DNA of 64,000 nucleotides from Candidatus Dadabacteria bacterium (GTDB taxonomy: Bacteria; Desulfobacterota_D; UBA1144; Nemesobacterales; Nemesobacteraceae), in NCBI GenBank assembly GCA_022827275.1, contig JAJDTG010000015.1, forward strand, positions 1 through 64,000, written 5' to 3'. Below the pieces are notes generated by a model. It was not told where the DNA came from and did no database searches. It saw only the letters and a list, made by a program, of their open reading frames with translations. Positions 13,876 through 61,900 of this stretch are shown one piece after another. Each line of letters opens with the position of its first letter. Position 1 is the stretch's first letter. Both the position numbers and the translations under genes were made by a program.

Positions 13876-15534
13876 ATGGAAAAATTTCTGCGTCTCTTTG
13901 TGCTCGCGTTGCTGGTCGCGTCCGCGGGGTTCTTCTCTACGGGATGCTCCCGGAGCACGGACTGTCAGGGTAGAAACGATAATGCCTCGCTTACGGGCAA
14001 TGCGGACCCGAACTCTTTTTCCGCCGGGGGTTCTCTTATAAGGGAACTCGGTGAGGAGCCCGCGACCCTTAACCCCGTTATAGCGACGGATGTCTACGAA
14101 GGCATCGTTAACGGCGGGATCTACGAGACGCTTATAACAAGAGATAACGAGACCCTTGAGTTCGAGCCCCTTCTTGCAAGTTCCTGGAAAGTTTCTGAGG
14201 ACGGGCTTTCCTATACTTTTCACCTGAGAAAAGACGTTAAATGGCATGACGGCACTCCGTTTACCGCGGATGACGTGGTTTTTTCCTATAATTCCATAAG
14301 AAACCCGAAAGTAGCCGCCGCCCACCTCCAAAGCTACTACCAGGACGTAAAGTCCTACACCAAGATTGACTCCCACACCGTCAAGTGCGAGTACGGAAAA
14401 CCCTACTTCCGCGCTTTTGAGTTCTGCGGGGGGATTCCCATAGTGCCGAAGCACGTGTTCAGCAAAGGGGATTTCAACACTAACCCCGCCGGCAGAAGCC
14501 CGGTGGGAACAGGGCCCTATGTGTTTGAGCACTGGGAGACCGGAAGGGAAATCAGGGTTAAGAGAAATCCCGGTTACTGGGGCGAGCCCGCGTGGCTCAG
14601 TGAAGTGGTCTACAAGATTGTGCTTGACCCCACGGTGAAGCTTCAGCTCCTAAAAAAACAGGAGCTTGACTACGGGGGTCTTCTTCCGCTTCAGTGGTCA
14701 AAGCAGAGCTGCGGGGATTCGTTTCGAAAAAAATTCTACAGGGCTTCTTATACTACCCCGGGCTACAACTACATAGGCTGGAATTCGAAGAAGCCTTTTT
14801 TCAGCGACAAAAAGGTAAGGCGGGCGATGACCCATTTTGTCGACAGGGAAACCATCCTGAGAGAGATTCTCCTGGGTCTCGGGGAGATAGTGACCACTAC
14901 TTTTTACGTAAACAGCTCCGAATACCCTAAGGACATAAAGCCGTACGCCTATGACCCGAAGAGGGCCAGGGCGCTTCTTGACGAGGCGGGGTGGCGCGAC
15001 AGCGACGGTGACGGAATAAGAGACAAGGACGGCGTCCCGTTCCGTTTCGAGTTCCTGCTGCCCACGGGTTCTGAAACCGGTGAGAAGATAGCGACTATAC
15101 TGAAAGAGGAACTCTCCCGCTCCGGCATCGAGATGAGCATAAGAAAGATAGAGTGGGCGGTTTTCATCCAGAGCATAACCGAGCGGAAATTCGATGCTGT
15201 GACCCTGGGCTGGAGCCTTGGGGTGGAAAGCGATCCCTACCAGCTCTGGCATTCCTCCCAGGCCGAGGCGGGCTCGAATTTCGTGGGATTCAAAAACCCC
15301 CGCGCGGATGTACTGATTGAGGAGGCAAGAGAGGAGTTCTCACGGCCGGAGCGAATAAAAAAATACGAGGAGTTCTCAAGGATTCTTCACGAAGAGCAGC
15401 CGTACACTTTTCTGTTTGCGAGGAAATCCACGGTGGTCGTGCACAAAAGGTTCCACAATGTAAGGCTCTATCCGCTTGGATTTGATGCCAGGGAGTGGTT
15501 TGTTCCGAAAAGTTTGCGTAAATATTCAAACTGA
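13876..15534 (+). CDS. dppA: Peptide ABC transporter substrate-binding lipoprotein
   Basis: This 552-aa family 5 (SBP_bac_5) protein has a lipoprotein signal ending in FFSTGC with Cys24. The fold is recognisable from LNPVIATDVYEGIVNGGIYE, TADDVVFSYNSI and the EF-hand-like DSDGDGIRDKDG in the second lobe. It captures peptides or similar solutes for the permeases at 27292-29291 and ATPases at 29298 and 35395. Normally all five genes are contiguous; here about 11.7 kb of accessory DNA separates it from dppB. Two further copies of its last 50 codons exist at 20352-20517 and 22801-22947. Confidence 0.92.
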   Translation: MEKFLRLFVLALLVASAGFFSTGCSRSTDCQGRNDNASLTGNADPNSFSAGGSLIRELGEEPATLNPVIATDVYEGIVNGGIYETLITRDNETLEFEPLLASSWKVSEDGLSYTFHLRKDVKWHDGTPFTADDVVFSYNSIRNPKVAAAHLQSYYQDVKSYTKIDSHTVKCEYGKPYFRAFEFCGGIPIVPKHVFSKGDFNTNPAGRSPVGTGPYVFEHWETGREIRVKRNPGYWGEPAWLSEVVYKIVLDPTVKLQLLKKQELDYGGLLPLQWSKQSCGDSFRKKFYRASYTTPGYNYIGWNSKKPFFSDKKVRRAMTHFVDRETILREILLGLGEIVTTTFYVNSSEYPKDIKPYAYDPKRARALLDEAGWRDSDGDGIRDKDGVPFRFEFLLPTGSETGEKIATILKEELSRSGIEMSIRKIEWAVFIQSITERKFDAVTLGWSLGVESDPYQLWHSSQAEAGSNFVGFKNPRADVLIEEAREEFSRPERIKKYEEFSRILHEEQPYTFLFARKSTVVVHKRFHNVRLYPLGFDAREWFVPKSLRKYSN

Positions 15535-15549
15535 TAGTATTCAGTCTAA

Positions 15550-18500
15550 TCAATCAGAAAATAAATACTGAGTGATTAGTGAGCGGGTCAAGATCTCAGC
15601 CCGGCCCGAAAGACGACAAATATCTTCCTCTTTCATTGCATTGAAATTTGTAGGGTAATCAATGACGGCTTCGCGATTAATCCACTGGGGAATCTTTATA
15701 GGGACTTGATTATCGATTTGTCCAAGGTTGACGTAAACAAATCGATCTAATTCATCTTTAGAAACATAATCATGCAAGCGCTTTTTAGTGGCATCGTTCA
15801 CTTTACGCATGATGCTATTAAACACCTGAACGATACGCGGGAACCACATTGACGGAAAAGCAGTACCAGTGAACTGGCCAGTCCCCGCATCACTTACAAG
15901 GATAGTATCTACTGAATGAGATATACGACTAATACTGTGGTCTCTGCCCGGTTCCATAACACTAACACCCAAGTTTTCAAATACTCCTCCGTCTGTTACC
16001 AAAACCCTTCGTTGTTGCAAGTCATCGCCTTGTCGAAAAGTAAAAGTCCAATCGTAAGGAGGTAATAACGGGGGATAGGCCGCCGATGCTGTGATTGCTT
16101 CTGCCAAACGAAGGTTGCTGGCTGGTGCATAACCATGCCTCCAAGATCCAAACTGTTCATTGCTCATACGAAATGCGGTTCCGGTACGCAACTCGCATGC
16201 GTTTAGTACTACTTGTTTATTTTGCCTTGTCGGGGCGTCACATTTGATATCACCGACAAGGTCAGCAATTGTTTCGGCAAGTACATGGGTTGTGGAATAC
16301 CAACTTGGCAATGGGAATCTGAGCCAATGAATATTTTTCCAATACTTCTGGATCCTTGTGGGTAGTAGTCGAACAACTTGACTTAAGAAGAAACGAAACA
16401 CTCTGAAGAGAGTGGATGGAATAGTTGCGAACAAAAACGATAGCAATATTGAAAATGATCTCTTTGGGTGCAGAAGCTTTAGTAAAGATGGCTTAACAAA
16501 ACCACGTCTCAGGATATTAATTATCAATGCATCAATTGACGAGAACGAATCTTCGCGATAACCCAGCAACCCTGTTGTCACCGAACCACCAGAAACACCT
16601 GAGATTACGGCAACTTCTTCAAGCATTTCCAGATCTTGAAGGGCGCGTAAAGTTCCTAAGTGAAACGCTATTGCGCGGGAACCGCCTCCAGACAATGCAA
16701 GACCAATAGAGTAAGGGTAAGGGCGAATGGGAGGTGCTTGTATGTACCCACCGTGCTGGGTCAAGGCTGTCACTTGCTCCCCATTTGAATAATTTAACTC
16801 TTGTTTCTCGAACAAGTACAAACCGAGTTCTGGTGTCTCACCCGAAGAGAAACCAATGATCATCATGACTTGATGAACGCCACCTGTCGGAGTCTCTTTA
16901 AATATTCCGGCGATTCCCTTAAAATCGGTCATGCTTGGCCTAGCGGCACAAGATGGATGAGAATGCCAAGTCCCTAAATAAACAATTGCATTTTGCGTGA
17001 GGGTTGAGTAATGCTTGGTAAGAGCCTTAACTCCTTCTATGCCGCAAGTAAACTGTTCTGGTGAAAAAGCACTATCTTCCGGTGGGCCACTGACCGCTGA
17101 AATCCATACTGTTCCCAGACTCTCGTCCAATTGACCGAACAAAATACCTCCTGTTTCGTCTGCCGCTCTCCGTTCCCGTTTACCGGTACGAATCCATCCT
17201 TTAGTGTCTCGCCATGCATGCTCTGCAACTCGAAACTCAATGCCGTCACCGGTTACGATAATGTCTCTAGAAAATGTACTTACAAAGTCGGAGTGCGATG
17301 TTGCATCCTTCGCCATTAAACCGCCCTTTGCAAAGTAAGTAGTATTCGCAAAGCTTCGTGCGATATGGTTTAGCATACGTGCAGCCAATCCGGCTACATC
17401 TGCGTTTGAACCAATAAAGGTTGGGTCTGAACAACCAGGCTCAGGCTGGCGCGTTGCTTCCGTTGTATTAGGGTTCCAGAAAGCATCAAACCAATGTCTC
17501 AACCAGTTCCGGTTAGCAGTTGCAAGTCCCAATCGCCGGTATACATCTAACGGACCCCCAGAGTATTCGGCAGGAGCTAACACCCAGGCACCATGTTGAG
17601 CTTGGCCGCTTACCATCATTGCTGCTATTGGTAACCGCAGGTCTGTAGTTTTTCGCAGTCCTTCTAGACGATGCCGCACTTGCAACGAAGCGGTGGCATC
17701 AATGAGCAAATCTATACCGTCTGAGAAACTTGTGTCCCGTAGAGTTGTTTTAATTATATCTTCGGTGTAAGAGACGACTTGGCAGCTAGGCGCGATAGCA
17801 TCAAGTCGTCGCTTTAGGGCATTCGCTTTAGAGTCTCCAATATCACCCCATTCGTAATTCTGACGTACGAGAATGCCTGGATTCACGATGACTTTATCGT
17901 ACAAAAAGAGACGACTTACACCGGCGCGTACTAGATGCTCGGCCACCGCACTCCCAAGTGCTCCGCAACCAAAGACCGCTACCGATTTACCACGTAATTC
18001 ATCCATTGGTGTTCCGGCATCGCGACGTTGCATAATCTCCGGTCGGTTTTCCATCACATTACACCAGCGAATTTCACTGGTTTCTTGCCAACGGTTAAAT
18101 TCCTCAAGGACACGTCCCGATAGATCAAAAACTTTTTTGGGAATTTTCGATTTTTTGTAAAACGATAACAGACCACAGGCAATCAAAGTGTTGTGGAGTC
18201 CCAAAGCATGGGCTGGAGGGATCTCCCACACTGTTAGATGCTGAAGTCGTTGCTTAATATCTCCTGCTAGGCCACGGGAAGGAGTACCGATAATTACATA
18301 GAGGGATTCCCCTTGTTTCAGTCTCTGGGCAGCCAGCATTAACTGGACTAGGACTTCTGTTTTCTCCACATCATGTTTTTCAAGACACTGTAACAGATGT
18401 TTTACAGTTTCTGGATATTCAAAAGGCAACTCAAAATCAAGCAGTAATGCGGGCGCAAAGGACTTATCCGCTGGTAATTCTGAAACAGGCAACCAGTTAT

Positions 18501-19095
18501 TTATTTCGATAAGATTCGTTTTTGTTTTAAAGAATGTGGCGGCACCGAACCAAGGCCATTGATCGCGTGTAGGTGTATTTGCATGAACGACCACACGAGT
18601 GTTGCTACCACGGTAAGCCACCGGAGGATGTAACGGTCCCTCTGGATCGTCAAGCTCATTCTGTGCAGCTTTTTTCAACCAGCTAGCAAGTTGCTCAACA
18701 AAACCAATCATTCCACGGGCCGGTTCCCACTGGGTCTCCGCTGATAAATATAAACATAAAAAATTGCCCCATTGAACATGTGGGTGGCCCGAGAAACGTG
18801 TGTGCGCGGTGTAGACTCTGGGAATAATATTGGGAAATTCGGGCGGGATAAATAATTGAACATTTTCCCGGGGATGGAGTTTCAGTCCCCCTTCTTTATG
18901 TTTGTAGCGAGAACAATCAAGCGATATATCCACCCGCAGACAATCCGTCTTGGAGGTTCTCTGGTGAATGTGATGGATGCGCAGTGCAGACTTTCTAGAA
19001 TCTGCGATACGATGGAGTTGTCTCAGCGCAAACTTCTGACCTTCAGTAAGCAACGGTTCATCCAAACCCCTTAGCCGAGGAAGCAGCACTGCCAC
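15550..19095 (-). CDS. E2-E1-JAB-patatin polyprotein
   Basis: One 1181-aa chain carries four enzymes. Residues 1-165 are an E2-like (UBC) domain with probable catalytic Cys114 in WGNFLCLYLSAE. Residues about 330-590 are a ThiF/E1 domain with GCGALGS (376-382) and candidate cysteine C555 in PGCSDPTFIG. Residues about 610-770 are a JAB/JAMM isopeptidase with E647, HSHP (711-714), S721 and D724. Residues about 795-1181 are a patatin-like phospholipase with GGGSRA (803-808), nucleophile S835 in GVSGGS and D1035 in DGG. A hydrophobic stretch (880-912) may touch membrane. In type II CBASS, Cap2 (E2-E1), Cap3 (JAB) and CapV (patatin) are separate genes around a CD-NTase; here they are fused and the partner is an MBL-fold protein. 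GTG 19095 overlaps that gene by 38 nt; a TTG about 30 nt downstream is possible. Confidence 0.9.
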   Translation of the reverse strand: MAVLLPRLRGLDEPLLTEGQKFALRQLHRIADSRKSALRIHHIHQRTSKTDCLRVDISLDCSRYKHKEGGLKLHPRENVQLFIPPEFPNIIPRVYTAHTRFSGHPHVQWGNFLCLYLSAETQWEPARGMIGFVEQLASWLKKAAQNELDDPEGPLHPPVAYRGSNTRVVVHANTPTRDQWPWFGAATFFKTKTNLIEINNWLPVSELPADKSFAPALLLDFELPFEYPETVKHLLQCLEKHDVEKTEVLVQLMLAAQRLKQGESLYVIIGTPSRGLAGDIKQRLQHLTVWEIPPAHALGLHNTLIACGLLSFYKKSKIPKKVFDLSGRVLEEFNRWQETSEIRWCNVMENRPEIMQRRDAGTPMDELRGKSVAVFGCGALGSAVAEHLVRAGVSRLFLYDKVIVNPGILVRQNYEWGDIGDSKANALKRRLDAIAPSCQVVSYTEDIIKTTLRDTSFSDGIDLLIDATASLQVRHRLEGLRKTTDLRLPIAAMMVSGQAQHGAWVLAPAEYSGGPLDVYRRLGLATANRNWLRHWFDAFWNPNTTEATRQPEPGCSDPTFIGSNADVAGLAARMLNHIARSFANTTYFAKGGLMAKDATSHSDFVSTFSRDIIVTGDGIEFRVAEHAWRDTKGWIRTGKRERRAADETGGILFGQLDESLGTVWISAVSGPPEDSAFSPEQFTCGIEGVKALTKHYSTLTQNAIVYLGTWHSHPSCAARPSMTDFKGIAGIFKETPTGGVHQVMMIIGFSSGETPELGLYLFEKQELNYSNGEQVTALTQHGGYIQAPPIRPYPYSIGLALSGGGSRAIAFHLGTLRALQDLEMLEEVAVISGVSGGSVTTGLLGYREDSFSSIDALIINILRRGFVKPSLLKLLHPKRSFSILLSFLFATIPSTLFRVFRFFLSQVVRLLPTRIQKYWKNIHWLRFPLPSWYSTTHVLAETIADLVGDIKCDAPTRQNKQVVLNACELRTGTAFRMSNEQFGSWRHGYAPASNLRLAEAITASAAYPPLLPPYDWTFTFRQGDDLQQRRVLVTDGGVFENLGVSVMEPGRDHSISRISHSVDTILVSDAGTGQFTGTAFPSMWFPRIVQVFNSIMRKVNDATKKRLHDYVSKDELDRFVYVNLGQIDNQVPIKIPQWINREAVIDYPTNFNAMKEEDICRLSGRAEILTRSLITQYLFSD

Positions 19096-20200
19096 CGGCG
19101 CCTGTTGCCTTTAGTGCATCTTCAATAGGTTCAGGTGTATCTACATCGCCAACGTAATTGAAACCGTTTTCTGTAACCTCAAAGATAATTGGCTGCGGGT
19201 CGTCTTCGTCAGGGTGCTCGTGTGTGCACAGAAATTCGTTTGGAACGATGCTCTCGTACTCAACTTTGGCAACTGTATGAGGTGGGTTGTCTCCCGGTTG
19301 GTTGCTATCGGGGATTGGTTCAGAACTTGACACTATATATCCTGGGGCAAGAGAATGATTACCAATATCTTTTACAATATCAGACTTAAGTGTTTCTTCC
19401 TCTTTACCTTCATCTTTCCAGTACATAACAGACTTCGAACAATGGTGCGGTGCCAGCAGCACATTCCAGTATAAAGTACTTTTGTAACTGCGGTTAAATA
19501 TCTTACGAATAATGGGATATTGAAGATCTCCCATCAACAGTGCTTGTCCGATTCCATTTCCCGACTTGAGAGTAATCTGTAGCGCAATGCTGCAATCGTT
19601 TCGTTCTCCATAGCTGTCTTCTTTAAATGGAGCGTGGACAAAGGCTTCAAAGTCATAGTAGACAGATTCGCCATCAACTGTGTTAATAGTATTTCCAGGA
19701 GTTGTGAGAAGCCTTGAAGGAAAACCCTTAAATTCCTCTTCTTCCAGCAGTTCGTCATAACCAATTATGCGGATTCGATCCCCAGCTCCAAGACTAAAGG
19801 GATTATCAATAGCTACTTTAACTCGACGCATTGCCTCTTCATAAAAAGCCTCTGCGTCTTCACACAGATCAGCATTTTCTTTGTATTCACGAAATATACG
19901 TGGCGAAAGCCATAATTCTGATATAACAACTTGAGACAGAAGGTCCTTGAAACCTTGGCAATGATCTTTGTCGGGATGAGTTAATACAAAGGTTGACAAG
20001 TAGGGAGCACCGTTAACCTTGGGTAGTATTTCAATTAACTCATCAATCACAGGCCATGCGGTATCATCATCCTCTTCAGATTTAGCCATATGCCGCAGAT
20101 CAATTTGTAAGTAAGTAGAATCCGAAATACGAACAGTGGTACTGTCCCCGTTTCCTACCGGCCAGAAAATAAACCCCTTACTGGGTGGTGTTATAGACAT
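19058..20200 (-). CDS. Metallo-beta-lactamase-fold hydrolase with Gly-ended tail
   Basis: The 380-aa protein has the MBL metal motif THPDKDH (HxDxDH), the later metal-ligand Asp in ALLMGDLQ and His in LLAPHHCS, as in ComEC-like MBL domains. Zinc sites look complete, so a hydrolase (nucleotide, nucleic acid or phosphoester) is likely; substrate unknown. The C-terminus is a low-complexity tail, GAGGSAASSAKGFG, ending in glycine. The start has AGGAGGT about 9 nt upstream. It is the first gene of a two-gene operon with the E2-E1-JAB-patatin protein, occupying the place the CD-NTase has in CBASS. I infer that its tail is the conjugation substrate; this is not shown. Confidence 0.85.
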   Translation of the reverse strand: MSITPPSKGFIFWPVGNGDSTTVRISDSTYLQIDLRHMAKSEEDDDTAWPVIDELIEILPKVNGAPYLSTFVLTHPDKDHCQGFKDLLSQVVISELWLSPRIFREYKENADLCEDAEAFYEEAMRRVKVAIDNPFSLGAGDRIRIIGYDELLEEEEFKGFPSRLLTTPGNTINTVDGESVYYDFEAFVHAPFKEDSYGERNDCSIALQITLKSGNGIGQALLMGDLQYPIIRKIFNRSYKSTLYWNVLLAPHHCSKSVMYWKDEGKEEETLKSDIVKDIGNHSLAPGYIVSSSEPIPDSNQPGDNPPHTVAKVEYESIVPNEFLCTHEHPDEDDPQPIIFEVTENGFNYVGDVDTPEPIEDALKATGAGGSAASSAKGFG

Positions 20201-20237
20201 TATGTTCTACCTCCTGGTTCTTATCTATATAAGATTC

Positions 20238-20265
20238 AATATGCGGAATTCAGATATATTTTCAA
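20238..20265 (-). promoter_or_regulatory. Candidate promoter of the MBL/E2-E1 operon
   Basis: On the minus strand TTGAAA (20265-20260) is followed after 16 nt by CATATT (20243-20238). Transcription would begin near 20231, about 30 nt before the MBL start. Confidence 0.5.
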
Positions 20266-20351
20266 GGCCCTCTGATAAAATAAATTAACTTCGAAGTAAT
20301 TCTTGTCATTTTCCAAAGGAGGATGAGAAATCCCATATGGATTTACCCTGA

Positions 20352-20517
20352 GAATTCCTCCAAAATTCTCCACGAGGAGCAGCCGTACACTTTTCTGTTT
20401 GCGAGGAAATCCACGGTGGCCGTGCACAGAAGGTTCAGTAACGTAAGACTCTATCCGCTTGGATTTGATACCAGGGAGTGGTTTGTTCCGAAGAATTTGC
20501 GTAAATACTCGGACTAG
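20352..20517 (+). pseudogene. Truncated dppA 3'-end copy (scar 1)
   Basis: The frame KILHEEQPYTFLFARKST...WFVPKNLRKYSD repeats the last 50 codons of the substrate-binding gene (15381-15534), with only a handful of substitutions and the same stop position. There is no upstream part of the gene. It forms, with the intact dppA end, a direct repeat bracketing the MBL and E2-E1-JAB-patatin genes. Confidence 0.88.
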
Positions 20518-20565
20518 TAGTCTTCGGCCTTGTGTAGTTAGTGCTAGGGAATGTGTCTAGGATTG

Positions 20566-20630
20566 CTCTTTAACTCTCTGTTCCCCGGATCTTTACTTAA
20601 GCTTTTCAAAAAACAGTTTTCTCCCTTCAA
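20566..20630 (-). pseudogene. Remnant of a fic 3' end
   Basis: The stretch matches the 3' end of the intact fic gene (22994-23055), including CTTTTCAAAAAACAGTT (20602-20618). Together with the dppA scar just upstream it reproduces the junction dppA-end/fic-end found at 22801-23060. Only about 20 codons remain. Confidence 0.65.
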
Positions 20631-20771
20631 CCACGAATTTTTTTATTCCATACCTTTCCGAGTACTCAGTTTTTTGTGGGAAGCATTCTTATTGTCATCC
20701 GCAGATTTGAGTCCTTCAAAGAAGAAAGTTTTCAGAAGAAAAGTATTCTTCTCAGTTGAGAAGTTTTGAGA

Positions 20772-20798
20772 AATAGATAAAATAAATACTTATCTATT
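20772..20798. promoter_or_regulatory. Inverted repeat, candidate AbiEi operator
   Basis: AATAGATAA (20772-20780) and TTATCTATT (20790-20798) form a perfect 9-bp inverted repeat with a 9-nt spacer in a very AT-rich leader. A TATAAT box follows at 20854-20859. AbiEi proteins are known to repress their own promoter through inverted repeats. Confidence 0.45.
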
Positions 20799-20892
20799 GA
20801 TAAATATATAAACACTTTCAGAGAATTATTTTTATATTTTCTTAAAAATACAGTATAATTATATTTATATATTAAATAATAAACCAGAAGGC

Positions 20893-21720
20893 TTGGATCA
20901 GACGCAGACCGAGAATGTTGATATGAACTACGTAGAAACACAAGATGAAACGCCACGAGGGACCAGAATCAACCGCGTGCTTGCCCAGAATCCTCCGGGT
21001 GTTCCCATGACCAGCGGGTGGCTTGCCTTGCAGCGGGTTTCCCCCCAACTACTGCAGGGATACAAGAGCAGCGGCTGGCTGAGCCCTATTGGAAGAGGGG
21101 CGTGGATGAGGGCGGGCACGGAACCTACCTTGTCAGGGTCCATCTACGCTTTGCAGCGGCAGCGTTCCGTGACCGTTTACCCTGCGGCGTGCACGGCGCT
21201 TGGGTATCAGGGACGCCTACATTACCTGCCGCTTGGAGCAAGCCCCGTTCTGCAGCTAGCCGTCGGATCCGACAGAAAACTGCCCCAGTGGTTTACGCGC
21301 CAGCCATTTGCCGCAAACCTGCGCGTGCTGAACGTCGATGCGCTGTTTGACCCGGTCTCAGCGGGTGTGACCGACTGGCAGGCCGGGGAGTTCTCGCTCA
21401 AAATAAGCTCTCCCGAGCGTGCCATGCTCGAGTACTGCTACCTGCTGCCGAACCACGCGGATTTCGAGGAAGCCAGGCAGCTTATGGAAGGCCTTGCGAC
21501 ATTGCGCCCCGAGGTGGTGCAAAGCGTTTTGCTTGCCTGCAGGTCGGTGAAGGCGAAACGGCTGTTTCTCGCCCTAGCGGAGATTGTCGGTCACGAATGG
21601 TACCGTGAACTGGATCTGGGATCCGTTAAACTCGGTTCCGGGGGCCGTCATGTTGTAACCGGCGGACTTTGGAACTCGAGATTCAAGATAACGGTTCCCG
21701 AAATCTGGGTGGATTCATGA
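20893..21720 (+). CDS. AbiEi-type antitoxin/transcriptional regulator
   Basis: The 275-aa protein matches the AbiEi layout: an N-terminal winged-helix-like region (RVSPQLLQGYKSSGWLSPIG), then a domain with AACTALGYQGRLHYLPLG and the LKISSPERAMLEYCYLLP segment typical of type IV antitoxins. TTG 20893 gives the longest frame; ATG 20923 is an alternative, neither with an ideal ribosome-binding site. Its TGA overlaps the ATG of the nucleotidyltransferase gene (ATGA), giving translational coupling. AbiEi both represses the operon and neutralises AbiEii without stable complex formation in described systems. Confidence 0.85.
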   Translation: MDQTQTENVDMNYVETQDETPRGTRINRVLAQNPPGVPMTSGWLALQRVSPQLLQGYKSSGWLSPIGRGAWMRAGTEPTLSGSIYALQRQRSVTVYPAACTALGYQGRLHYLPLGASPVLQLAVGSDRKLPQWFTRQPFAANLRVLNVDALFDPVSAGVTDWQAGEFSLKISSPERAMLEYCYLLPNHADFEEARQLMEGLATLRPEVVQSVLLACRSVKAKRLFLALAEIVGHEWYRELDLGSVKLGSGGRHVVTGGLWNSRFKITVPEIWVDS

Positions 21721-22640
21721 CGGAAGCGTATCAAAGACAATCGAACTTGTTACTTGAGACCCTGCGGATTGCCGCTGGGCAGGAGGTGTTCGCTCTTAAA
21801 GGGGGCACGGCCATCAATTTTTTCTTCCGGAATTGTCCGAGACTTTCCGTGGACATTGATCTCTGCTACCTGCCGCTTAACGGTCGCGACGAAGCGTTTC
21901 GCGATATCCGTGAGAACTTGGAAGCGATCGGGTCTGAGATCAGAAAGTCCTTGTCCGGAGCGGAAGTGAACATCCAGGAGAATTTTAAGGTCCTGGTAAG
22001 AAAAGACGGCATGCTGGTTAAGGTTGAAGTTAACGAAGTGGTGCGGGGAACCTTGCTGCCGCCGGTCAGGATGCCCTTGTGTCCGTTGCTTGAAAAAGAG
22101 TTCGGTGGGAGCATGAAGATAAACTGCCTCTCGGAGTCGGAGCTTTACGCAGGCAAATTCTGTGCCGCCCTGCAGAGGCAGCATCCGCGGGATATCTTCG
22201 ATGTCTGGTTGTTTTTTAAAAGGGGTGGAGAGCTTACCCGGGAGATCCTTGATGCTTTTGTCGTTTACCTAATTAGCCATCGCAAGCCGACTCATGAGGT
22301 GATCGATCCCAGAATTCAGGACATAAGGAACCTTTATCATCATCGTTTTGCGGGGATGGCGAGAATGGACGTGAGTCTTGAGAACTTGCTCGAAACCCAG
22401 CTTGCGCTGCCGGGGAGGATTCTAGGCGCTCTCACCGAGCGCCACAGGGCTTTTCTCGTCGGGTTCAATGAAGGGGAGCCGGACTGGAATCTGCTTCCTT
22501 TTCGCGATGCGAAAAACTTGCCCGCGATTCGCTGGAAACGGATCAATCTTGACAGAATGAGCCGTGGCAAACGGAGCGAAACCACAAGGAAACTGGTACG
22601 GGTACTCAGGGAGAATCCATATATTCACGATACCATCTGA
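21717..22640 (+). CDS. AbiEii-type nucleotidyltransferase toxin
   Basis: From ATG 21717 the protein is 307 aa. The nucleotidyltransferase motif is FALKGGTAINFFF followed by the metal pair in LSVDIDLCYLP, as in AbiEii/MenT toxins. The later YAGKFCAALQRQHPRDIFDV segment is also typical. Such toxins transfer nucleotides to tRNA or other targets and cause growth arrest; the pair can act in abortive phage defence. The start is fixed by the ATGA overlap. The module is bracketed by two copies of the dppA/fic end junction. Confidence 0.9.
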   Translation: MTEAYQRQSNLLLETLRIAAGQEVFALKGGTAINFFFRNCPRLSVDIDLCYLPLNGRDEAFRDIRENLEAIGSEIRKSLSGAEVNIQENFKVLVRKDGMLVKVEVNEVVRGTLLPPVRMPLCPLLEKEFGGSMKINCLSESELYAGKFCAALQRQHPRDIFDVWLFFKRGGELTREILDAFVVYLISHRKPTHEVIDPRIQDIRNLYHHRFAGMARMDVSLENLLETQLALPGRILGALTERHRAFLVGFNEGEPDWNLLPFRDAKNLPAIRWKRINLDRMSRGKRSETTRKLVRVLRENPYIHDTI

Positions 22641-22678
22641 GTTCCTGACCGATTCTAAGAGCTTGTTTTTGGAGGCCG

Positions 22679-22803
22679 ATTTTTCCCCAGCAAAATACAG
22701 TCCCACCGAGAGCGATTTTTTCTCCGTTCTTGCGGCTCCCGACGGGAATCATTTCCTCGGCACTGACGGCAGAGTAAGGGGTGTTCTTAGCGGAATGATT
22801 CAC
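22679..22803 (+). pseudogene. Fragment of the dppC permease gene fused to a dppA end
   Basis: The frame PAKYSPTESDFFSVLAAPDG and NHFLGTD repeats residues about 88-128 of the permease at 28290. At ATGATTCACG it switches into the dppA 3' end. The permease reads GATTCACGGGG there and dppA reads ATTCTTCACGAAG, so the join lies in the shared TTCACG. Confidence 0.85.
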
Positions 22804-22947
22804 GAGGAACAGCCGTACACGTTTCTGTTCGCGAGAAAATCAACCGCGGCTGTGCACAGAAGGTTCCATAACGTAAAGTTCTATCCGCTTGGATTTGATG
22901 CCAGAGAGTGGTTTGTTCCGGAGGGTTTGCGCAAATACTCGAACTAG
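22801..22947 (+). pseudogene. Truncated dppA 3'-end copy (scar 2)
   Basis: HEEQPYTFLFARKSTAAVHR through WFVPEGLRKYSN and stop repeats the last 48 codons of dppA. It is directly joined to the dppC fragment upstream and followed by the intact, convergent fic gene. With scar 1 it brackets the AbiE module. Confidence 0.88.
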
Positions 22948-28293: not shown

Positions 28294-29291
28294 AGCAGGG
28301 CTCAGCAGGCGTCGGATACTGGGGCAGGGTGTGGGTAGAGTTCAAAAAGGACTCCCTCGCGTACGTATCGTTTTTCTTCATAATCCTCCTCGCGGTGACG
28401 GCGATTTTCGAGAGTTTCCTAGCGGGCAACAGGCCCATAGTGCTGGTTGAGGAGGGCAAGTACTATTTCCCCGTGGTTATCGATTATCCCGAGCTTCGCG
28501 GAGAGGATCTTCGGGCCGCGTATCTTGACGATCAGGATTCGTTCGCGATTTTCCCTCCCGTGAAGTACAGCCCCACGGAAAGCGATTTCTTCTCCGTTCT
28601 CGCGGCTCCCGACGGGAACCATTTTCTCGGCACCGACGACAGGGGGAGGGATGTTCTCAGCAGGATGATTCACGGGGCGAGAATATCGCTCTCAATAGGG
28701 GTGGTAGCCGTCGGGATAGCCATGGTGATAGGAATAATACTGGGGGCGGTTGCGGGTTATTACGGCGGCTGGATCGATTTTGCGATCTCAAGGTTAATAG
28801 AGGTGATGATCACTTTCCCTGTCTTCTTTCTGATCCTCACAATCCTCGCCTTTACCGAGCCGAGCATTTACAATATCATGATAGTGATAGGCGTAACGGG
28901 CTGGACGGGCGTGGCGAGGCTCGTTCGCGGAGAGTTCCTGAAACTTCGCCAGACGAACTACGTTGAGGCGGCGTGGGCTCTTGGAAGCGGCGACCGCAGG
29001 ATTATACTAAAGCACATGCTTCCAAACGCTCTTGCCCCGGTGCTTGTAAGCGCCACCTTCGGAGTGGCGGGAGCTATACTGGTTGAATCGAGTCTCAGTT
29101 TTCTCGGGTTCGGGGTGACGCCCCCTGAACCCAGCTGGGGAGAGATAATCTCGCAGTCCCAGAAGTACGTGGATTTTGCGTGGTGGCTTGTTCTTTTCCC
29201 GGGGCTTGCGATCTTCATTACGGTTACGGCTCTTAATCTGGTGGGGGAAGGATTCAGAAACGCGATAGACCCCAAACTAAAGGAAAGATAA
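28290..29291 (+). CDS. dppC: Peptide ABC transporter permease (DppC type)
   Basis: The 333-aa protein has an N-terminal membrane helix (FFIILLAVTAIFESFLA), a periplasmic insertion with LAAPDGNHFLGTDDRGRDVL that is the DppC/OppC signature, and five further helices with an EAA loop (NYVEAAWALGSGDRRIILKH). A stretch of its coding sequence (about 28553-28676) is repeated as a pseudogene at 22679-22803. Confidence 0.93.
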   Translation: MKQGSAGVGYWGRVWVEFKKDSLAYVSFFFIILLAVTAIFESFLAGNRPIVLVEEGKYYFPVVIDYPELRGEDLRAAYLDDQDSFAIFPPVKYSPTESDFFSVLAAPDGNHFLGTDDRGRDVLSRMIHGARISLSIGVVAVGIAMVIGIILGAVAGYYGGWIDFAISRLIEVMITFPVFFLILTILAFTEPSIYNIMIVIGVTGWTGVARLVRGEFLKLRQTNYVEAAWALGSGDRRIILKHMLPNALAPVLVSATFGVAGAILVESSLSFLGFGVTPPEPSWGEIISQSQKYVDFAWWLVLFPGLAIFITVTALNLVGEGFRNAIDPKLKER

Positions 29292-52443: not shown

Positions 52444-52867
52444 GAGCGCACGACTTCTGGCTGAAGAATTGAGAAGTCTTGGTTACGAACCAGAGATCTT
52501 TGTTTCCACAATGCATCATTGCGTTGGTGAAGGAGTCAAGTTCGAGTATCAGATCGAGGATGGTAGTCGATCTGGAGAAAAAGTGCTAATTGGCCTCGTA
52601 GTTCCAGAACCCCGGGGCACATGGCCTGAAGCTACTCCGCACTGGATACTTATTTCTCCAGTTGATATTGTCCTTGAGGAGCAGGTCCAAGCGAATCGAG
52701 GTGGGCAGCAGGGTTCCGTCGAACGGTATGTGGATGAGGAAGATGTCGAGTGGATGGCGATCAGCGCACCTGTAAAGGATTTCTGGGACAAGATTGAACC
52801 ACCTGACAGCAAGAGCGTTAAAACATATATCAAGCGGCATATCCGACGTATTTGGGATGCCAGATGA
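52436..52867 (+). CDS. E2-like protein of the ubiquitin-like operon
   Basis: The 143-aa protein starts inside the end of the Ubl gene (8-nt overlap). The WPEATPHWILISP segment (63-75) resembles the proline-rich front of E2 folds, and the C-terminal half (WMAISAPVKDFWDK and IKRHIRRIW) fits prokaryotic E2-like families. The only cysteine is C29, far from the usual catalytic place after the proline segment, so it may work as a non-canonical or inactive E2, or use C29. The E2 assignment relies on operon position plus fold-like pattern. Confidence 0.65.
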   Translation: MSKSARLLAEELRSLGYEPEIFVSTMHHCVGEGVKFEYQIEDGSRSGEKVLIGLVVPEPRGTWPEATPHWILISPVDIVLEEQVQANRGGQQGSVERYVDEEDVEWMAISAPVKDFWDKIEPPDSKSVKTYIKRHIRRIWDAR

Positions 52868-54372
52868 ATTACCGCGTTGTCCTCCGGGAGAAATTGCACC
52901 GGAAACTTGTCCACCACCTGTTGCATCATCTTCAAACTGATAGTTTGCAGGAAGAGGTGTGCTTTGCACTCTGGTATCCTGGGGATGGTATGAATCGATA
53001 CACCGGTATTTTGGGTGAATTGATTTTCCCTACATCTGATGATCGAGAGTTACATGGCAATGTCACCGTCCACGGACAATATCTAAATCGAGTTCTAGAG
53101 CGTGCTCTTAAGACGAAAACAGGTGTTGCCGTTCTCCACAGCCATCCATCTTACGGTTGGCAGGCGCTCAGCCGGGATGATTACGATACTGAATGCAACT
53201 TAATACTACCTTTTATCCGAGAGACTGGTCTCCCGCTCTTGGGCCTAACTCTGGCTGAGAACGAGATATGGAGTGCTCGTTTCTGGCATGAACCGCGTCT
53301 TGGAAGTGCCCGGTTGACTCACTGTACTGAGGTGCGTCGGGTGGGGGTACGCAAGTCCATTGCGGATACGGATCCTAAAGCATATCCAACTTATACTCGA
53401 CGTACTATTCTAAAGCGCACTTTAGATTGCTGGGGTCTTTCGGTGCAGGCCCGACTTGCACGAACGCATGTTTGTGTTGTAGGTGCTGGGAGCGTGGGTG
53501 CTATGGTTCTTGAAGCTCTTGCCCGTACGGGCATTGAGCAGATAACTATCATTGATCAAGACGAAGTTGCCCCACATAATCTTGACCGACTTGCTTATGC
53601 TGACCGTTTTTCCATAGGCCTCAGAAAGGTGGATGTTGCTGCGGCACGTGTTCGCCGGATTTCAACTGCCTCTAAGCCTGTTGTCCGTGCTATTCCATTG
53701 TCAATCCGCCATGAACGGGCGTATAGGCTTGCTGCCGACGCTGATATAATCATAAGTTGTGTTGATAACGCGGAGGCGCGGGATGTATTGAACCACTTGT
53801 CATACAGTAATTGTCTGCCTTTAATCGACGGAGGCGTTGACGTTGACTCCCCGGAAGGCCACCTTTGCTCTGCAAAGTGGCGTGTTCATTTAGTCGGTCC
53901 AGGCATGCAATGCTTGCGTTGCCGAGAACAATACACGAGTACAGAAGCGGCCGATGAACGAGAGGGATTGAGACGTCACGGTCGCTATATTAATCACGAT
54001 GATCCAAGTGGTCCAGAACCGGGCCAGAATACATTTGCGTTCTGTAGCATTGTTGCCGCTGAAGAAATCCGGCTTTTTGTTCGTTATTTGGTAGGAGAAA
54101 AATGGTGGCATGATACTGATCCTAATTCCGGTCTCTGGGCTTTCGAACACCAATTTGTTGATGCTTCCATAAAGTCTTTTGAGCATCCCGGCGAATGTTG
54201 CTCTTCGTGTGAGTTTGCCCATAAGCGACTAGGTCTGGGGAAACATGGGCGTCCCTCTTATTCTTTTCTACCCGAATCCCGTGACCATTTGGGCACACGT
54301 GCAAGGCGTTTTTTCCTGCGTATTCGCCGTAGGGTAGAACGCCTGATTTATACCTTGGAACATTTTGAATAA
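52864..54372 (+). CDS. JAB isopeptidase-E1 fusion
   Basis: From ATG 52864 (ATGA overlap with the E2-like gene) the protein is 502 aa. Residues about 1-150 are a JAB/JAMM domain with the glutamate at 30/31, HSHP (92-95), S103 and D106. Residues about 185-430 are a ThiF/E1 domain with GAGSVG (207-212), the acidic nucleotide-binding DQDEVAPHNLDR (231-242), CLRC (350-353), candidate active C394, and CCSSC (445-449); the CxxC pairs probably bind zinc. In Bil systems BilC (DUB) and BilD (E1) are separate; here they are fused, JAB first. Confidence 0.88.
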   Translation: MNYRVVLREKLHRKLVHHLLHHLQTDSLQEEVCFALWYPGDGMNRYTGILGELIFPTSDDRELHGNVTVHGQYLNRVLERALKTKTGVAVLHSHPSYGWQALSRDDYDTECNLILPFIRETGLPLLGLTLAENEIWSARFWHEPRLGSARLTHCTEVRRVGVRKSIADTDPKAYPTYTRRTILKRTLDCWGLSVQARLARTHVCVVGAGSVGAMVLEALARTGIEQITIIDQDEVAPHNLDRLAYADRFSIGLRKVDVAAARVRRISTASKPVVRAIPLSIRHERAYRLAADADIIISCVDNAEARDVLNHLSYSNCLPLIDGGVDVDSPEGHLCSAKWRVHLVGPGMQCLRCREQYTSTEAADEREGLRRHGRYINHDDPSGPEPGQNTFAFCSIVAAEEIRLFVRYLVGEKWWHDTDPNSGLWAFEHQFVDASIKSFEHPGECCSSCEFAHKRLGLGKHGRPSYSFLPESRDHLGTRARRFFLRIRRRVERLIYTLEHFE

Positions 54373-55821: not shown

Positions 55822-58800
55822 ATGAACGCTGATTCCACCGGTCGCACCCTCTTCATCGTTGACAACAGTGTCGCCGGCTGGACCGGGCTGCGTTACCTTA
55901 AAGAATGGGTGGATATCGCCAGGGCTTTTGATATCGCAACCGGATTCTTTGAGATCGGTGCACTGCTCGCCCTCGACGGAAAGTGGCAGAGCCTTGAGAA
56001 GATTCGTGTGCTGATGGGGGCCGAGACAAGTTACCGTACACGCAGAGTTCTTCTGAACGCCGTACGCACTCAGACGATCGAGATGCTCAATCAAAGCATC
56101 GAGTCTGACAAGCAAGACAATCCATTTCTACATGGCGTACCAGCGATTCTCGATGGGTTGCGCCACGGTCAGATCGAGTGCCGTATCTACGACAAGAGAA
56201 AGTTCCACGCGAAGACGTACATCACACATGCCAAACTCGAAGTCGTTGGCTCGCAGGCATTAGTAGGTTCAAGCAATTTCACAAAGCCGGGGCTCACCCA
56301 AAACATCGAACTCAATGTGCAGATTCAGAGCGCACGTGAAGTGGCCCAGCTCCAAGATTGGTTCGAAGTACACTGGAAAGACGCCAAAAACATAACCGAG
56401 GATGTGATCCACCTTGTCGAGCGGCATACTCGTTTCTACTCGCCATTCGACATCTACGCGAAAGCGCTACAGGAGTTCTTCCATGGGCATGAATTGACCG
56501 CCACCGAATGGGATGAAACGCAATCCAAGATGTTTCACCACCTAGATCGATACCAACAGGAAGCATATTGGGCGCTGATGAAGATTGCGCGTCAGCATGG
56601 TGGTGCATTTCTCTGCGATGGCGTTGGCCTTGGCAAAACTTTTGTCGGCCTGATGCTCATTGAGCGTCTGGTCCTCCATGAAGGCAAGCGCGTTGTTTTA
56701 TTCGCGCCCAAGGCGGCAAAAGAAGGTGTATGGGAACCTCACCTGCGGGAATGGCTGCCGCATATTGGAGGCGTGGACGGTGCAGATTTCAGCAACTTGG
56801 CCGTTTTTAGTCACACTGATCTGAGCAGGAAAGGCGACTTTCCAGAGCGATTCCGGCGCATCGCTGAGTTGGCCGACGTAGTAATCATCGACGAAGCGCA
56901 TCACTTCCGAAACTTGGGCAGGCAGGGCGACGACGATAGGGATCCCTCCCGCTACTATCGGCTTTACGACCTGCTCGACAACACGGTGCGTTCCAAGACC
57001 CTGTTCATGCTGACCGCAACCCCGATCAACAACCGCCTTAGCGACTTCCGACACATGGCCGAGTTGTTTACCCGCCGGGACGAGGCATATTTCGCACGGA
57101 CACTGGGCGTCAACAACCTGCGTGCCCACTTCAATCAGATGGAAAGGGCCCTGCGGGATCGCGTTGGTCGTGATGTGACCGATGTTGCCGAGCAGATGAA
57201 CGAAGCCCAGGAGATACTGGCCACAGACGCGATCTTTCGCCAACTCGTGGTGCAGCGCAGTCGCGCCTACGCTCGAGAGAGCCAGATTCGAGAGACCGGT
57301 GAGGCTACGGCGTTTCCCGAACGTAAGGCGCCGCAAGTTGCTGCCTATTCGATCCGTAAGTCCTACGGTCGTCTTCTGGATCTGTTCGAAAAGGCTTTCA
57401 CGCGGGAGAATCCGCTCTTCACGCTACCCATGTATCACCCGCTGCACTGGTACAAAGGCCCGGACAAGGATATTGACCCATTTGAACAGAACCGACAACA
57501 TCAAGTCGTCGGTCTGATCCGCACCAATTTTCTCAAGCGTTTCGAGAGTTCCGTTGTGGCCTTTGAACTTTCTTGCGACCGCCTACTGAAGAAGCTTCTG
57601 GCCTTCATTGAAGTCCACAGTGAGACTGCCGGAGAGGAGAGTCAGCTGGCTGGGTGGAAGATGCAAAACGCTGACATTCTCGGCTACGCGACGCAACGCG
57701 AGTTCGATTTTTTCGGCGAGGGTAACGACGAATCCGAGGACGAGGACATCCTGCCTCCAGAAGTGCTTGAGGATGTCGAACGGCTCGACCGCAACGAGTA
57801 CGATGTCGAGGAGATGATTTCCGAAACCTTTCTGGACCTCGACCAGATCGTACAGTTTCTCTATGAGGCCCGGAGGTTCGAGCCTAGGCACGACGACAAG
57901 CTCCAGAAACTTATCCGTCTGCTCAAGTCCAAAGAACTTGCTGGACAGAAAGTCCTCGTTTTCACGGAATTCGCTCACACGGCACGTTACCTGAAACGCC
58001 AACTTGACGATGGTGGCATCGAAGGTGTGGCTCAATTGGACAGTGCTACCGGTGGCAATCGAGCAGAGATGATCCAGCGGTTCTCACCCTTCTACAACGG
58101 CAGTTCTTCGGCTGCGCTTTCGGATGCCGGTCGCAAGGAGATTCGCATCCTCATCTCTACCGATGTCCTTTCAGAAGGACTGAACCTCCAGGATGCGTCG
58201 CGAATGATCAACTACGACATTCACTGGAATCCAGTGCGCCTGATGCAGCGCATCGGCCGCGTTGACCGGCGCCTGAACCCAGAAGTCGAGAAACGACTCG
58301 CCGCAGAACACCCAGAAATTGCTCGCTCTCGTGGTAAAGTGAGCTTCTGGAACTTCCTGCCACCCGATGAACTGAATGCCATCCTGACGCTCTATACGAG
58401 GGTTACGCAAAAAACCCTGCTGATCTCGAAGACGCTTGGAATCGAGGGCAGGAAGCTGTTGACGCCGGACGACGATTTTGACGCGCTCAAGGAGTTCAAT
58501 CATGCCTACGAGGGTATGCGCACAGCGGTCGAGAATATGAACCTCGAATACCAAGCCTTGCTACAGGCCGACCCCGAACTGGAGTCGCGTCTCAAACGCT
58601 TGCCTAGCGCGACTTTCAGCGGTCGGGAGCGAGTATCCGAGGGAATGCGCGGCGTGTTTTTTTGCTATGCGCTTCCCGCCCTTAATAAGGAAATCGGCGA
58701 ATTTACAGAGGAGGCGGGGACCACACGCTGGTACCTCTACGATCTCGACCGGGACGTGATCCTCGAAGAACCGGGCGAGATCGTCGCAAGTATCCGGTCT

Positions 58801-58962
58801 AAGCCTGAGACGCCTCGCAAGTGCGTTACGGAGGAGAAAACGCTCATCGAGATCCGCACGAAGGTCGAGAGGCACGTCAAGAACACGTATCTTAAGCGAG
58901 TTGACGCTCCGATGGGCGTGAGGCCGTCGCTCAAATGCTGGATGGAACTAAATGGAAGATAA
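55822..58962 (+). CDS. PLD-nuclease-SNF2 helicase fusion
   Basis: The 1046-aa protein begins with a phospholipase D-like nuclease domain (KFHAKTYITH followed by LVGSSNFTKPGL, the HxK and GSxN pattern, about residues 130-160). The SNF2/SF2 helicase follows with Walker A CDGVGLGKTFVG, DEAHHFRN, SAT-like MLTATPINNRL, and motifs V-VI including STDVLSEGLNLQDAS and QRIGRVDRR. It would translocate on DNA and cut via the PLD domain. With the following methyltransferase (11-nt overlap) it looks like a restriction-modification type defence. It is not DISARM: no DUF1998 or drmA-like gene is present. Confidence 0.88.
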   Translation: MNADSTGRTLFIVDNSVAGWTGLRYLKEWVDIARAFDIATGFFEIGALLALDGKWQSLEKIRVLMGAETSYRTRRVLLNAVRTQTIEMLNQSIESDKQDNPFLHGVPAILDGLRHGQIECRIYDKRKFHAKTYITHAKLEVVGSQALVGSSNFTKPGLTQNIELNVQIQSAREVAQLQDWFEVHWKDAKNITEDVIHLVERHTRFYSPFDIYAKALQEFFHGHELTATEWDETQSKMFHHLDRYQQEAYWALMKIARQHGGAFLCDGVGLGKTFVGLMLIERLVLHEGKRVVLFAPKAAKEGVWEPHLREWLPHIGGVDGADFSNLAVFSHTDLSRKGDFPERFRRIAELADVVIIDEAHHFRNLGRQGDDDRDPSRYYRLYDLLDNTVRSKTLFMLTATPINNRLSDFRHMAELFTRRDEAYFARTLGVNNLRAHFNQMERALRDRVGRDVTDVAEQMNEAQEILATDAIFRQLVVQRSRAYARESQIRETGEATAFPERKAPQVAAYSIRKSYGRLLDLFEKAFTRENPLFTLPMYHPLHWYKGPDKDIDPFEQNRQHQVVGLIRTNFLKRFESSVVAFELSCDRLLKKLLAFIEVHSETAGEESQLAGWKMQNADILGYATQREFDFFGEGNDESEDEDILPPEVLEDVERLDRNEYDVEEMISETFLDLDQIVQFLYEARRFEPRHDDKLQKLIRLLKSKELAGQKVLVFTEFAHTARYLKRQLDDGGIEGVAQLDSATGGNRAEMIQRFSPFYNGSSSAALSDAGRKEIRILISTDVLSEGLNLQDASRMINYDIHWNPVRLMQRIGRVDRRLNPEVEKRLAAEHPEIARSRGKVSFWNFLPPDELNAILTLYTRVTQKTLLISKTLGIEGRKLLTPDDDFDALKEFNHAYEGMRTAVENMNLEYQALLQADPELESRLKRLPSATFSGRERVSEGMRGVFFCYALPALNKEIGEFTEEAGTTRWYLYDLDRDVILEEPGEIVASIRSKPETPRKCVTEEKTLIEIRTKVERHVKNTYLKRVDAPMGVRPSLKCWMELNGR

Positions 58963-61900
58963 TCCGATACCGACCGACCATCGCGCCGCACTCGCGAACA
59001 TCAAGCGATTCAATCAGTTAATCGCCTATCTGCGCGACGAACTGGCGTGGCCCATCGAGGATGCAGACTTTGACGACCTGACCTTCGAGTACACCCCTGA
59101 GGAGCTGGGTATCGAAACAAAGAGCGCCGCCAAGATCCAGGAGATCAAGCGGCTGCGTCCCCTTACTTCAAACCAGCCCTGGGGCATCTTCTTTGTAAAG
59201 TTCGAGCCAAAAAAACTTCCGGTCGTTGCCCTGCGCCGAATCCTCGGTCAAGTGACTCTCAAGAAGCGTGCCTCCGCCAACAGTTTCGAGCGCCGGGCAT
59301 GGGCAGTAGACGACCTCCTTTTCGTCTCCAACTACGGTGAAGGCGCGGCGCGGCAGATCAGTTTCGCGCACTTCGCTGGCCCCGCCGGGAGCCGCGATCT
59401 TCCCACTCTCAAGGTGCTTGGCTGGGACGACCGCGATACCGCGCTGCATCTCGATGTCATTGCCAGAGAGTTGAGCGAGCACTTGGCGTGGCCGGAAGAT
59501 GAGGACGACGTCGACGCGTGGCGCGACCAGTGGCGCGCGGCATTCACCCTAAAGTACCAGGAAGTCGTCACCACCTCACACGATCTCTCGATTCGTTTGG
59601 CGGAATTAGCCCGCAAGATCCGCGACCGTATCCAGACCGCACTTGCCATCGAAACGGAGGACGGGCGTATCACGAAGCTTATGAAGGCGTTTCAGGAAGC
59701 CCTAGTGCATGACTTGGACAACGATGGCTTCGCCGATATGTACGCCCAGACTATCGCCTATGGCCTGCTCTCGGCCCGCATCGCCGACCCGCACCGGAAA
59801 ACAGCGGACGATTTCGCTGGGCACATGCGTACGAACCCTTTCCTGCGCGACTTGATGGACACGTTTCTCCAGGCGGGCGGGTGGGAGACTAAGATGGGCA
59901 GTATGGGCGTAAACTTCGACGAATTGGGCGTTGCAGAAGTTGTGGAACTACTTGACGACGCAAACATGGAGGCCGTGATCCGTGACTTCGGTGACCGGAA
60001 CCCGCGTGAAGATCCGGTAATCCATTTCTACGAGCTCTTCCTGAAGGAATATGATCCCAAGAAGCGAATGCAACGCGGTGTCTTCTACACACCGCTTCCC
60101 GTGGTCTCCTACATTGTCCGCTCGGTGGACACGTTGCTGCGCACAGAGTTCGGACTCGCCGATGGCTTGGCGGACACGACTACTTGGGATCAAATGGCGA
60201 GGCGTCATGCAAACCTAGAGATACCTCAGGGTATCTCACCGGATCAGGATTTCGTCCAAATCCTCGACCCTGCCACTGGCACTGGTACCTTTCTGGTAGA
60301 GACTATCGACGTGATCCACAAGACGTTGAAACAAAAATGGCACACGCAAGGCTACGACGAGCAGCAGGTGAAGTCGCTTTGGAATGAGTATGTTCCCAAG
60401 CATCTGTTACCACGCCTTCACGGCTACGAACTACTGATGGCCCCATACGCCATCGCCCATTTAAAAATCGGTCTCAAGCTGTACGAAACCGGCTATCGCT
60501 TCAAGAGCAGCGAGCGGGGGCGAATATATCTCACCAATGCGCTGGAACCGGCTAAGGATTTCTCACAAGGAACTTTCGATTTCGTCATCCCGGCACTCGC
60601 CAAAGAGGCCCAAGAGGTTGACGAAGTCAAGCGCACCGCGCGGTTTACGGTCGTAGTCGGCAACCCACCGTACTCTGGTCATTCGGCCAACAAGGGTGAG
60701 TGGATCGCTAGCTTGATTGACGACTACAAGCAAGGCTTTCCTGAGCTGAAAAAGCCGGCACAAGCAAAGTGGCTCAGTGATGACTACGTTAAGTTCATCC
60801 GCTTCGCCCAGTCGGTGCTTATACGCACAGGTGCCGGAACGCTCGGATTCATTACCAACCACAGCTACTTGGACAATCCCACATTTCGTGGCATGCGTAA
60901 GAGTCTCTTACAGGATTTCAACAACATTCACCTTCTGGACCTGCATGGCAACTCAACGAAAAAGGAACGAGCACCGGACGGCGGGAAGGACGAAAATATT
61001 TTTGACATTAAGCAAGGTGTGGCCATCGGTCTGTTCGTGAAAGGAGCAGTTGACAACAACAGTCTTGCCCAAGTGTGTCATGCCGACCTCTGGGGCGTGC
61101 GTGAAGCGGTTGCCGATGGTGGAAAATATGACTGGCTGGCGACCAACGACATCAGCAACGCAGTTGCCAACAGCGAGGAGGTTTCCCCGAGGGCTCCTCA
61201 ACATCTGTTTGTGCCACGTGACGAAATGTTAGTCAATGAGTATGAGGCCGCTTGGCCGATCCCCAAGATCTTTTCGCCGAGTGGCAGCCCCGCGCCGGGT
61301 ATCATTACCACTCATGACCAGTTTGCCATTTCGTGGACGCGCAAGGAAGCCACGTCGAAGGTCGAGCGTCTGCTTACTACGACATCAGAGCAAGAGGCGC
61401 GAGAGATATGGCACCTGTGTTCACAGAAGCAATGGCAATACGACCGTGCGAAAAGGCAACTTGCCGAAGAACTCTGGCGCGAGCGGATCGAGACTGTCCT
61501 CTACCGCCCTTTTGATTTCCGTGTAACCGTTTTCGATCGCAACGTAGCGGTTCATCGGCGCGAGCGCGTCATGCGCCATATGCTGGCGGGTGTGAATCTT
61601 GGACTTTGTATTGGCCGAGCGGGTCAAGTGATCGGTTCAGATAGCTGGGATGTGGTCTTTGTGTCTGAGGATATTTCGGACTTTAACCTGTTCAGGCGCG
61701 GCGGGAATTGCCTCTTCCCACTGTACACATATGCTTCGGAGGTGATGCCCCATTTCTCAGGTGGCAGGGAACCGAATCTCGACCGCGAATTCATTGATGC
61801 ATTCGGTTCGGCCATCCGCCTTAAATTCATTTCCAACGATGTCGGCGATCTCGACACCAACTTCGGCCCGAAGGATGTATTTAACTACCTCTACGCCGTA

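Follow-up and report, generated by a model that had tools for sequence, protein, structure and literature searches.

We found that a two-gene operon in the window (the whole 64,000-nucleotide stretch of a Candidatus Dadabacteria contig analysed here) is almost certainly a variant of the known 6A-MBL system, pairing an MBL-fold protein with a single chain that carries E2, E1, JAB and patatin domains. Taken as a whole, the proposal of a 6A-MBL anti-phage system in which the patatin effector has been fused to the C-terminus of E2-E1-JAB and the MBL protein is the modifier is, in our judgement, probably correct.

Membership of the family is clear from the curated NCBIfam anti-phage equivalog models: residues 71-746 of the fusion protein match 6A-MBL_cap2_3 (NF058523, a model that stops at JAB) with 369.2 bits against a cut-off of 320, and the MBL protein matches 6A-MBL_enzyme (NF058524) with 307.7 bits against a cut-off of 220. 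The two genes overlap on the same strand (Table 1). The suggestion of a compact defence system, made in an earlier sequence-only reading, thus stands to the extent that both products belong to a curated anti-phage family. The same reading suspected that MBL genes near E1, E2 and JAB sets had been catalogued before, as indeed they had: row 6a in Table 1 of Iyer et al. (2006) is a triple-module E2-E1-JAB protein beside an MBL, with no patatin given in that row, and row 6b, listed separately, is the operon type later named CBASS (PMC1779556). Apart from that work, our search by name and by components, which lay outside preprints and most subscription papers, found no dedicated 6A-MBL paper. The pairing of E2-E1-JAB with an MBL is therefore known since 2006; what is new is the patatin fusion variant and the result on the MBL tail.

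Table 1. Features of the 6A-MBL operon, its borders and a second ubiquitin-related region, in window coordinates
Feature	Position	Strand	Residues or basis
E2-E1-JAB-patatin fusion gene, 1181 aa	15550..19095	(-)	ORF, Pfam, NCBIfam, alignment
E2 (Prok-E2_A) domain, ~aa 16-175	18571..19050	(-)	catalytic Cys114 at 18754-18756
E1 (ThiF-type) domain, ~aa 356-600	17296..18030	(-)	GxGxxG, D400, R411, K423; Cys555 at 17431-17433
JAB/JAMM isopeptidase domain, ~aa 640-770	16786..17178	(-)	E647, H711, H713, S721, D724
Patatin phospholipase domain, ~aa 797-1181	15550..16707	(-)	GGGSRA, S835 in GVSGGS, D1035 in DGG
MBL-fold protein, 380 aa (6A-MBL_enzyme)	19058..20200	(-)	HxDxDH, D225, H252/H253
MBL C-terminal tail, aa 353-380, predicted disordered; putative conjugation tail	19058..19144	(-)	end ...SSAKGFG
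Direct-repeat copy 1, 3' end of native oppA-like gene, border of 6A-MBL cassette	15382..15542	(+)	
Direct-repeat copy 2 of oppA 3' end, other border of 6A-MBL cassette	20365..20525	(+)	88.8% to copy 1
Direct-repeat copy 3 of oppA 3' end, border of neighbouring AbiE cassette	22799..22945	(+)	
JAB-E1 fusion, DrmD/phospholipase-D-like helicase and methylase-like protein region	52852-54372, 55822-58962, 58952-62392		

All four domains read from the letters of the 1181-residue chain were recovered by domain search above Pfam gathering cut-offs: Prok-E2_A (5e-22, residues 32-174), ThiF (6e-20, 364-478), Prok-JAB (4e-9, 640-747) and Patatin (1e-21, 799-1045). In an alignment of 25 E2-E1-JAB homologues, C114 of the E2 and C555 of the E1 domain are the sole invariant cysteines, the E1 GxGxxG loop, D400, R411 and K423 are conserved, and the JAB residues E647, H711, H713, S721 and D724 are kept in every row that reaches them (24 of 25 from H711 onward, the remaining row stopping at the end of its record). 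The fused patatin has its oxyanion loop, GxSxG serine and DG[G/A] aspartate, all of which agree with the stand-alone patatins of relatives. From these conserved residues all four enzymes look active. The gene is under purifying selection throughout, with dN/dS between the window and a sister genome of 0.13 for E2, 0.15 for E1, 0.15 for JAB and 0.11 for patatin; the JAB-patatin linker is its least constrained part (0.41). For the E1 part, CBASS Cap2 is the closest relative with a solved structure. An AlphaFold model of the full chain had a mean pLDDT of 51, too low for domain contacts to be read. The start of the gene is uncertain, being either the GTG at 19095, which gives a 38-nt overlap with the MBL gene, or an in-frame TTG near 19065 or 19053, closer to the MBL stop. 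We drop the earlier label 'polyprotein', since nothing in the data points to the processing that it implies.

The overlapping gene encodes an MBL-fold protein whose metal ligands, as first read, are complete: H75, D77, D79, H80, D225, H252 and H253 are invariant in an alignment of 22 sequences, and the motif is HxDxDH, as in ComEC, not HxHxDH. AlphaFold gave a confident MBL fold (pTM 0.85), with pLDDT below 50 for residues 353-380. This C-terminal tail, downstream of the MBL domain, is rich in alanine, serine, glycine and proline, and its end is conserved. In 35 of 36 MBL homologues the tail finishes with GFG, GYG, RAG (PRAG), RVG or HG followed by zero to five residues, a motif class defined after the tails had been seen; the exception ends GGGGYA (locus L099). 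The glycine end is present in 12 of 13 representatives below 50% identity, and such tails span many phyla. Shuffling the tails of the 13 representatives gave the motif in 0.69 of them on average and in five at most, and it occurred in 7 of 213 control ORFs, which were other ORFs of the same loci and not a curated set of unrelated MBLs. It was absent from the other operon products and from three other nearby MBL genes, the sole other MBLs checked. In a blind MAFFT alignment of 22 sequences, G380 is invariant. The motifs also track clades of the enzyme tree, with GFG in the window and actinobacterial clade, HG in the TM clade and RAG in most others; because the MBL and E1 genes are linked in one operon and co-inherited, this agreement is only consistent with the proposal and is not independent evidence for it.

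In type II CBASS, Cap2 forms a thioester with the C-terminal glycine of the CD-NTase and Cap3 removes it, and comparable conservation of the C-terminal glycine has been reported across 1,583 CBASS cyclases (PMC10097602). The tail of the Bacillus cereus CBASS cyclase ends KPGGFA (PMC11153139), much like the GFG of the window MBL. Taken with these parallels, the glycine-ending tail suggests that the MBL protein is itself the conjugated modifier, and we consider its conjugation through the tail rather likely. The sequence-only reading had put an MBL enzyme in place of the cyclase; the protein does occupy the place of the CD-NTase, and it is probably more than an enzyme replacing it. According to a 2025 review, Cap2 is the only known system that activates a non-beta-grasp protein (PMC12355090). 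We think it somewhat more likely than not that the MBL of 6A-MBL systems joins the CBASS CD-NTases as a second class of non-beta-grasp modifier, conjugated via its conserved C-terminal glycine (in some cases once JAB has trimmed the tail), and that some lineages fuse this entire switch to the phospholipase effector under its control.

In the scheme that we infer, where MBL conjugation, its targets, the trigger and direction of control, any activity of the MBL itself and protection by the Dadabacterium copy are all hypothetical, the E1 domain would adenylate the glycine end of the flexible MBL tail, and the MBL would be passed via Cys555 and then Cys114 before being joined to a target protein, as type II CBASS does with its CD-NTase. 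The targets might be the patatin or the chain itself. By analogy with ubiquitin precursors, which the residues beyond the glycine in many MBLs resemble, the JAB domain would have a maturation role, trimming those short residues in many relatives, and it would also cleave the MBL from its targets. The state of conjugation would control the patatin, which, once released or activated, would degrade membrane phospholipid and so stop the infection; the fusion would hold effector and switch in one chain.

The active site of the MBL is nonetheless intact and ComEC-like, and ComEC MBL domains have been reported as nucleases, so the protein may double as a nuclease. In a stronger form of this idea, which we think unlikely, the MBL is a ComEC-like nuclease effector regulated by conjugation, of itself or of something else, with the patatin as a second, optional effector. 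The nearest solved fold to the MBL model is the ComEC MBL domain (9ic4, TMt 0.74), to which there is also a profile match (2e-8); weak matches link the protein to the defence MBL proteins Avs1a, LmuA and PDC-M48B; the metal ligands do not vary; and enterobacterial operons consist of MBL and E2-E1-JAB alone. A nuclease effector is, however, compatible with conjugation through the tail and does not exclude it, and the recurrent patatin or TM third gene described below points to the membrane rather than DNA as the main target in most lineages.

Slightly less likely still is a modifier from outside the operon, either a ThiS/MoaD-like protein of the host or another unlinked beta-grasp protein, with the MBL as effector or target. 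The E1 domain belongs to the ThiF/MoeB type, and Iyer et al. speculated, for operons with JAB, E1 and E2, that the modifier was an endogenous ThiS/MoaD or an operon-encoded Ubl (PMC1779556). Inspection of ORFs of at least 30 residues upstream and at least 80 residues elsewhere showed no apparent beta-grasp Ubl or BilA candidate, including within the cassette, which would fit a modifier encoded at a distance. Such a modifier leaves the disordered, glycine-ending MBL tail across many phyla unexplained, and Cap2, the closest solved relative, takes a large non-beta-grasp partner encoded beside it. We retain the MBL protein as the preferred modifier.

The fusion itself recurs. Its nearest match, in the sister genome (Dadabacteria RHO1_bin_23), is an intact four-domain ORF of 1183 residues with 84% identity over the full chain, and a viral contig (L093) encodes the same domain order in one ORF with 40% identity over 1131 aligned columns. 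An artefact of gene prediction or assembly, or chance read-through of two genes, can be discounted: although the sequence is of MAG type and the JAB and patatin genes of relatives overlap by 4 nt, such that one indel could fuse them, the fusion is intact in the independent MAG and the IMG/VR contig, and dN/dS is low in all four domains. In the E2-E1-JAB tree the three fused proteins cluster with moderate support (82/68) within a clade of members that have a separate patatin, and a one-time fusion of adjacent, coupled genes is the simplest reading. Because a phage-tail-type protein lies downstream of the fusion in L093, that copy may be the cargo of a phage. In the MBL gene of the sister genome (L021, 6892-7800), four nucleotides (AATC) are duplicated ahead of the tail and shift the reading frame, the tail sequence with its KGFG end still being readable in the shifted frame; this is either an assembly error or a loss.

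Patatin fusion to all three enzymes had been singled out as the most unusual feature of the locus. The four-domain order recurs in the sister genome and L093, so the fusion is rare but not unique, and a patatin encoded separately is commoner. We accordingly rejected the idea that patatin is peculiar to the Dadabacterium locus, as it is a common third gene of 6A-MBL. Plasmid loci share a core of MBL followed by E2-E1-JAB, to which a separate patatin is added in Streptomyces, Rhodococcus, Pseudarthrobacter, Ruegeria, Phaeobacter, Bradyrhizobium, Gluconobacter, Roseomonas and Sphaerotilus, and in Rhizobium A1, where a frameshift seems to divide it. Burkholderia, other rhizobia, Nostoc, Methylocystis, Deinococcus and others have instead a small third gene with 2-4 TM segments by hydropathy scan. 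Overlaps of 4-14 nt between the JAB stop and the third gene are frequent, 4 nt being a common value, and the separate patatin is usually translationally coupled. Since it encodes either a patatin or a 2-4-TM protein, the slot is mostly membrane-directed, as in CBASS. The lipase effector that had been suggested thus finds its counterpart in the effector slot of relatives, and we hold it quite likely that the patatin is an effector. E. coli, Klebsiella and Xanthomonas show no third gene in the same operon and, as the E. coli and Klebsiella copies have no obvious effector there, the patatin may be accessory. In enterobacterial 6A-MBL operons (L029, 4462-4980 and 4993-5847) a WYL/BrxR-type regulator is accompanied by a divergent 172-residue protein, predicted to have membrane segments, which could be a hidden effector. 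WYL/BrxR or HTH-ImmA type regulators lie upstream at many 6A-MBL loci. Another operon, on a Mesorhizobium plasmid (L053, 2431-7161), has separate E2 and ThiF genes and, as its last gene, a patatin close to that of the window.

The MBL exceeded its cut-off in 7 of 387 genomes sampled across bacteria. Of 61 genomes comprising the window's own and its relatives, only the own genome and one other, probably the sister genome (G008), passed the cut-off; phylum searches around other genomes added few further members. Close relatives are found on E. coli and Klebsiella plasmids, with a match in 109 of 5,426 complete E. coli genomes, 29 of these over at least 80% of the query. Neither the MBL nor the full chain had a match in a phage collection; in viral contigs, single-protein queries found nothing and a profile query succeeded.

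Three direct repeats of the final ~150 bp of an oppA-like gene border the 6A-MBL cassette (15543-20525), which holds only its two genes, and a neighbouring AbiE cassette (20526-22945), and neither cassette contains an integrase. In the stretches read from other genomes of the genus the oppA 3' end is present as a single copy; one of them (G009) is an empty site in which oppA is joined straight to the sequence beyond the window's cassettes, and the sister genome has the 6A-MBL cassette alone, without the AbiE cassette. The 3' end of the oppA-like gene looks like an accretive insertion hotspot. The AbiEi/AbiEii type IV toxin-antitoxin pair (20893-22640) that adjoins the operon also lies beside 6A-MBL on Ruegeria (L027) and Phaeobacter (L052) plasmids. 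A further repeat of ~130 bp (83% identity) occupies 22677-22807 and 28546-28677. Elsewhere in the window another ubiquitin-related gene encodes a 506-residue JAB-E1 fusion, with a DrmD/phospholipase-D-like helicase and a large methylase-like protein downstream of it, and this region is likely to be a second defence island.

If 6A-MBL conjugates its MBL, the conjugation of large enzymes through glycine tails would prove to be a strategy of general use in bacterial immunity, and the operon type left uncharacterised in the 2006 list would gain a mechanism open to test. With close relatives on E. coli and Klebsiella plasmids, the question is testable in laboratory strains. By joining effector and switch physically, the fusion suggests that the conjugation machinery regulates the effector directly.

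The components invite comparison with several known systems. The MBL protein shares fold and HxDxDH motif with the ComEC MBL domain, its best PDB match, but it stands alone without a channel domain, ends in a glycine tail and is accompanied by conjugation enzymes. Bil and related bacterial ubiquitination operons use E1, E2 and JAB enzymes in anti-phage conjugation, and these enzymes are common to Bil (BilABCD) and the window operon; Bil, however, encodes the beta-grasp protein BilA, none being apparent in the window cassette, whose enzymes are fused.

The likeness to type II CBASS is closer in layout, each gene having a positional analogue: both have E2-E1 and JAB enzymes, a patatin effector and a partner whose flexible tail ends in glycine. 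The Cap2/Cap3-type catalytic residues (C114, C555 and the JAMM motif) are conserved as domains of one chain, and the CBASS-like C-terminal Gly/Ala tail, with zero to five residues past the glycine, is present in the MBL rather than in a CD-NTase. We nevertheless rejected membership of CBASS, as the cassette has no CD-NTase (SMODS) and hence no nucleotide cyclase, an MBL-fold protein taking that place. The functions of Cap2, Cap3 and CapV are in one chain, and the Cap3 model matches it weakly, with 20 bits against a cut-off of 200. The genome's one SMODS match lies ~44 kb from the operon, at contig positions 63946-64431; the CD-NTase (SMODS) gene concerned, with a C-terminal SEC-C motif, runs from 62842 to 64000 and past the window's right edge, outside the 6A-MBL cassette. 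With 6A-MBL the operon shares both components (MBL and E2-E1-JAB), their order and scores above the curated cut-offs; it differs in that the JAB of the window continues into a fused patatin, whereas the patatin or TM protein is usually a third gene of its own or absent.
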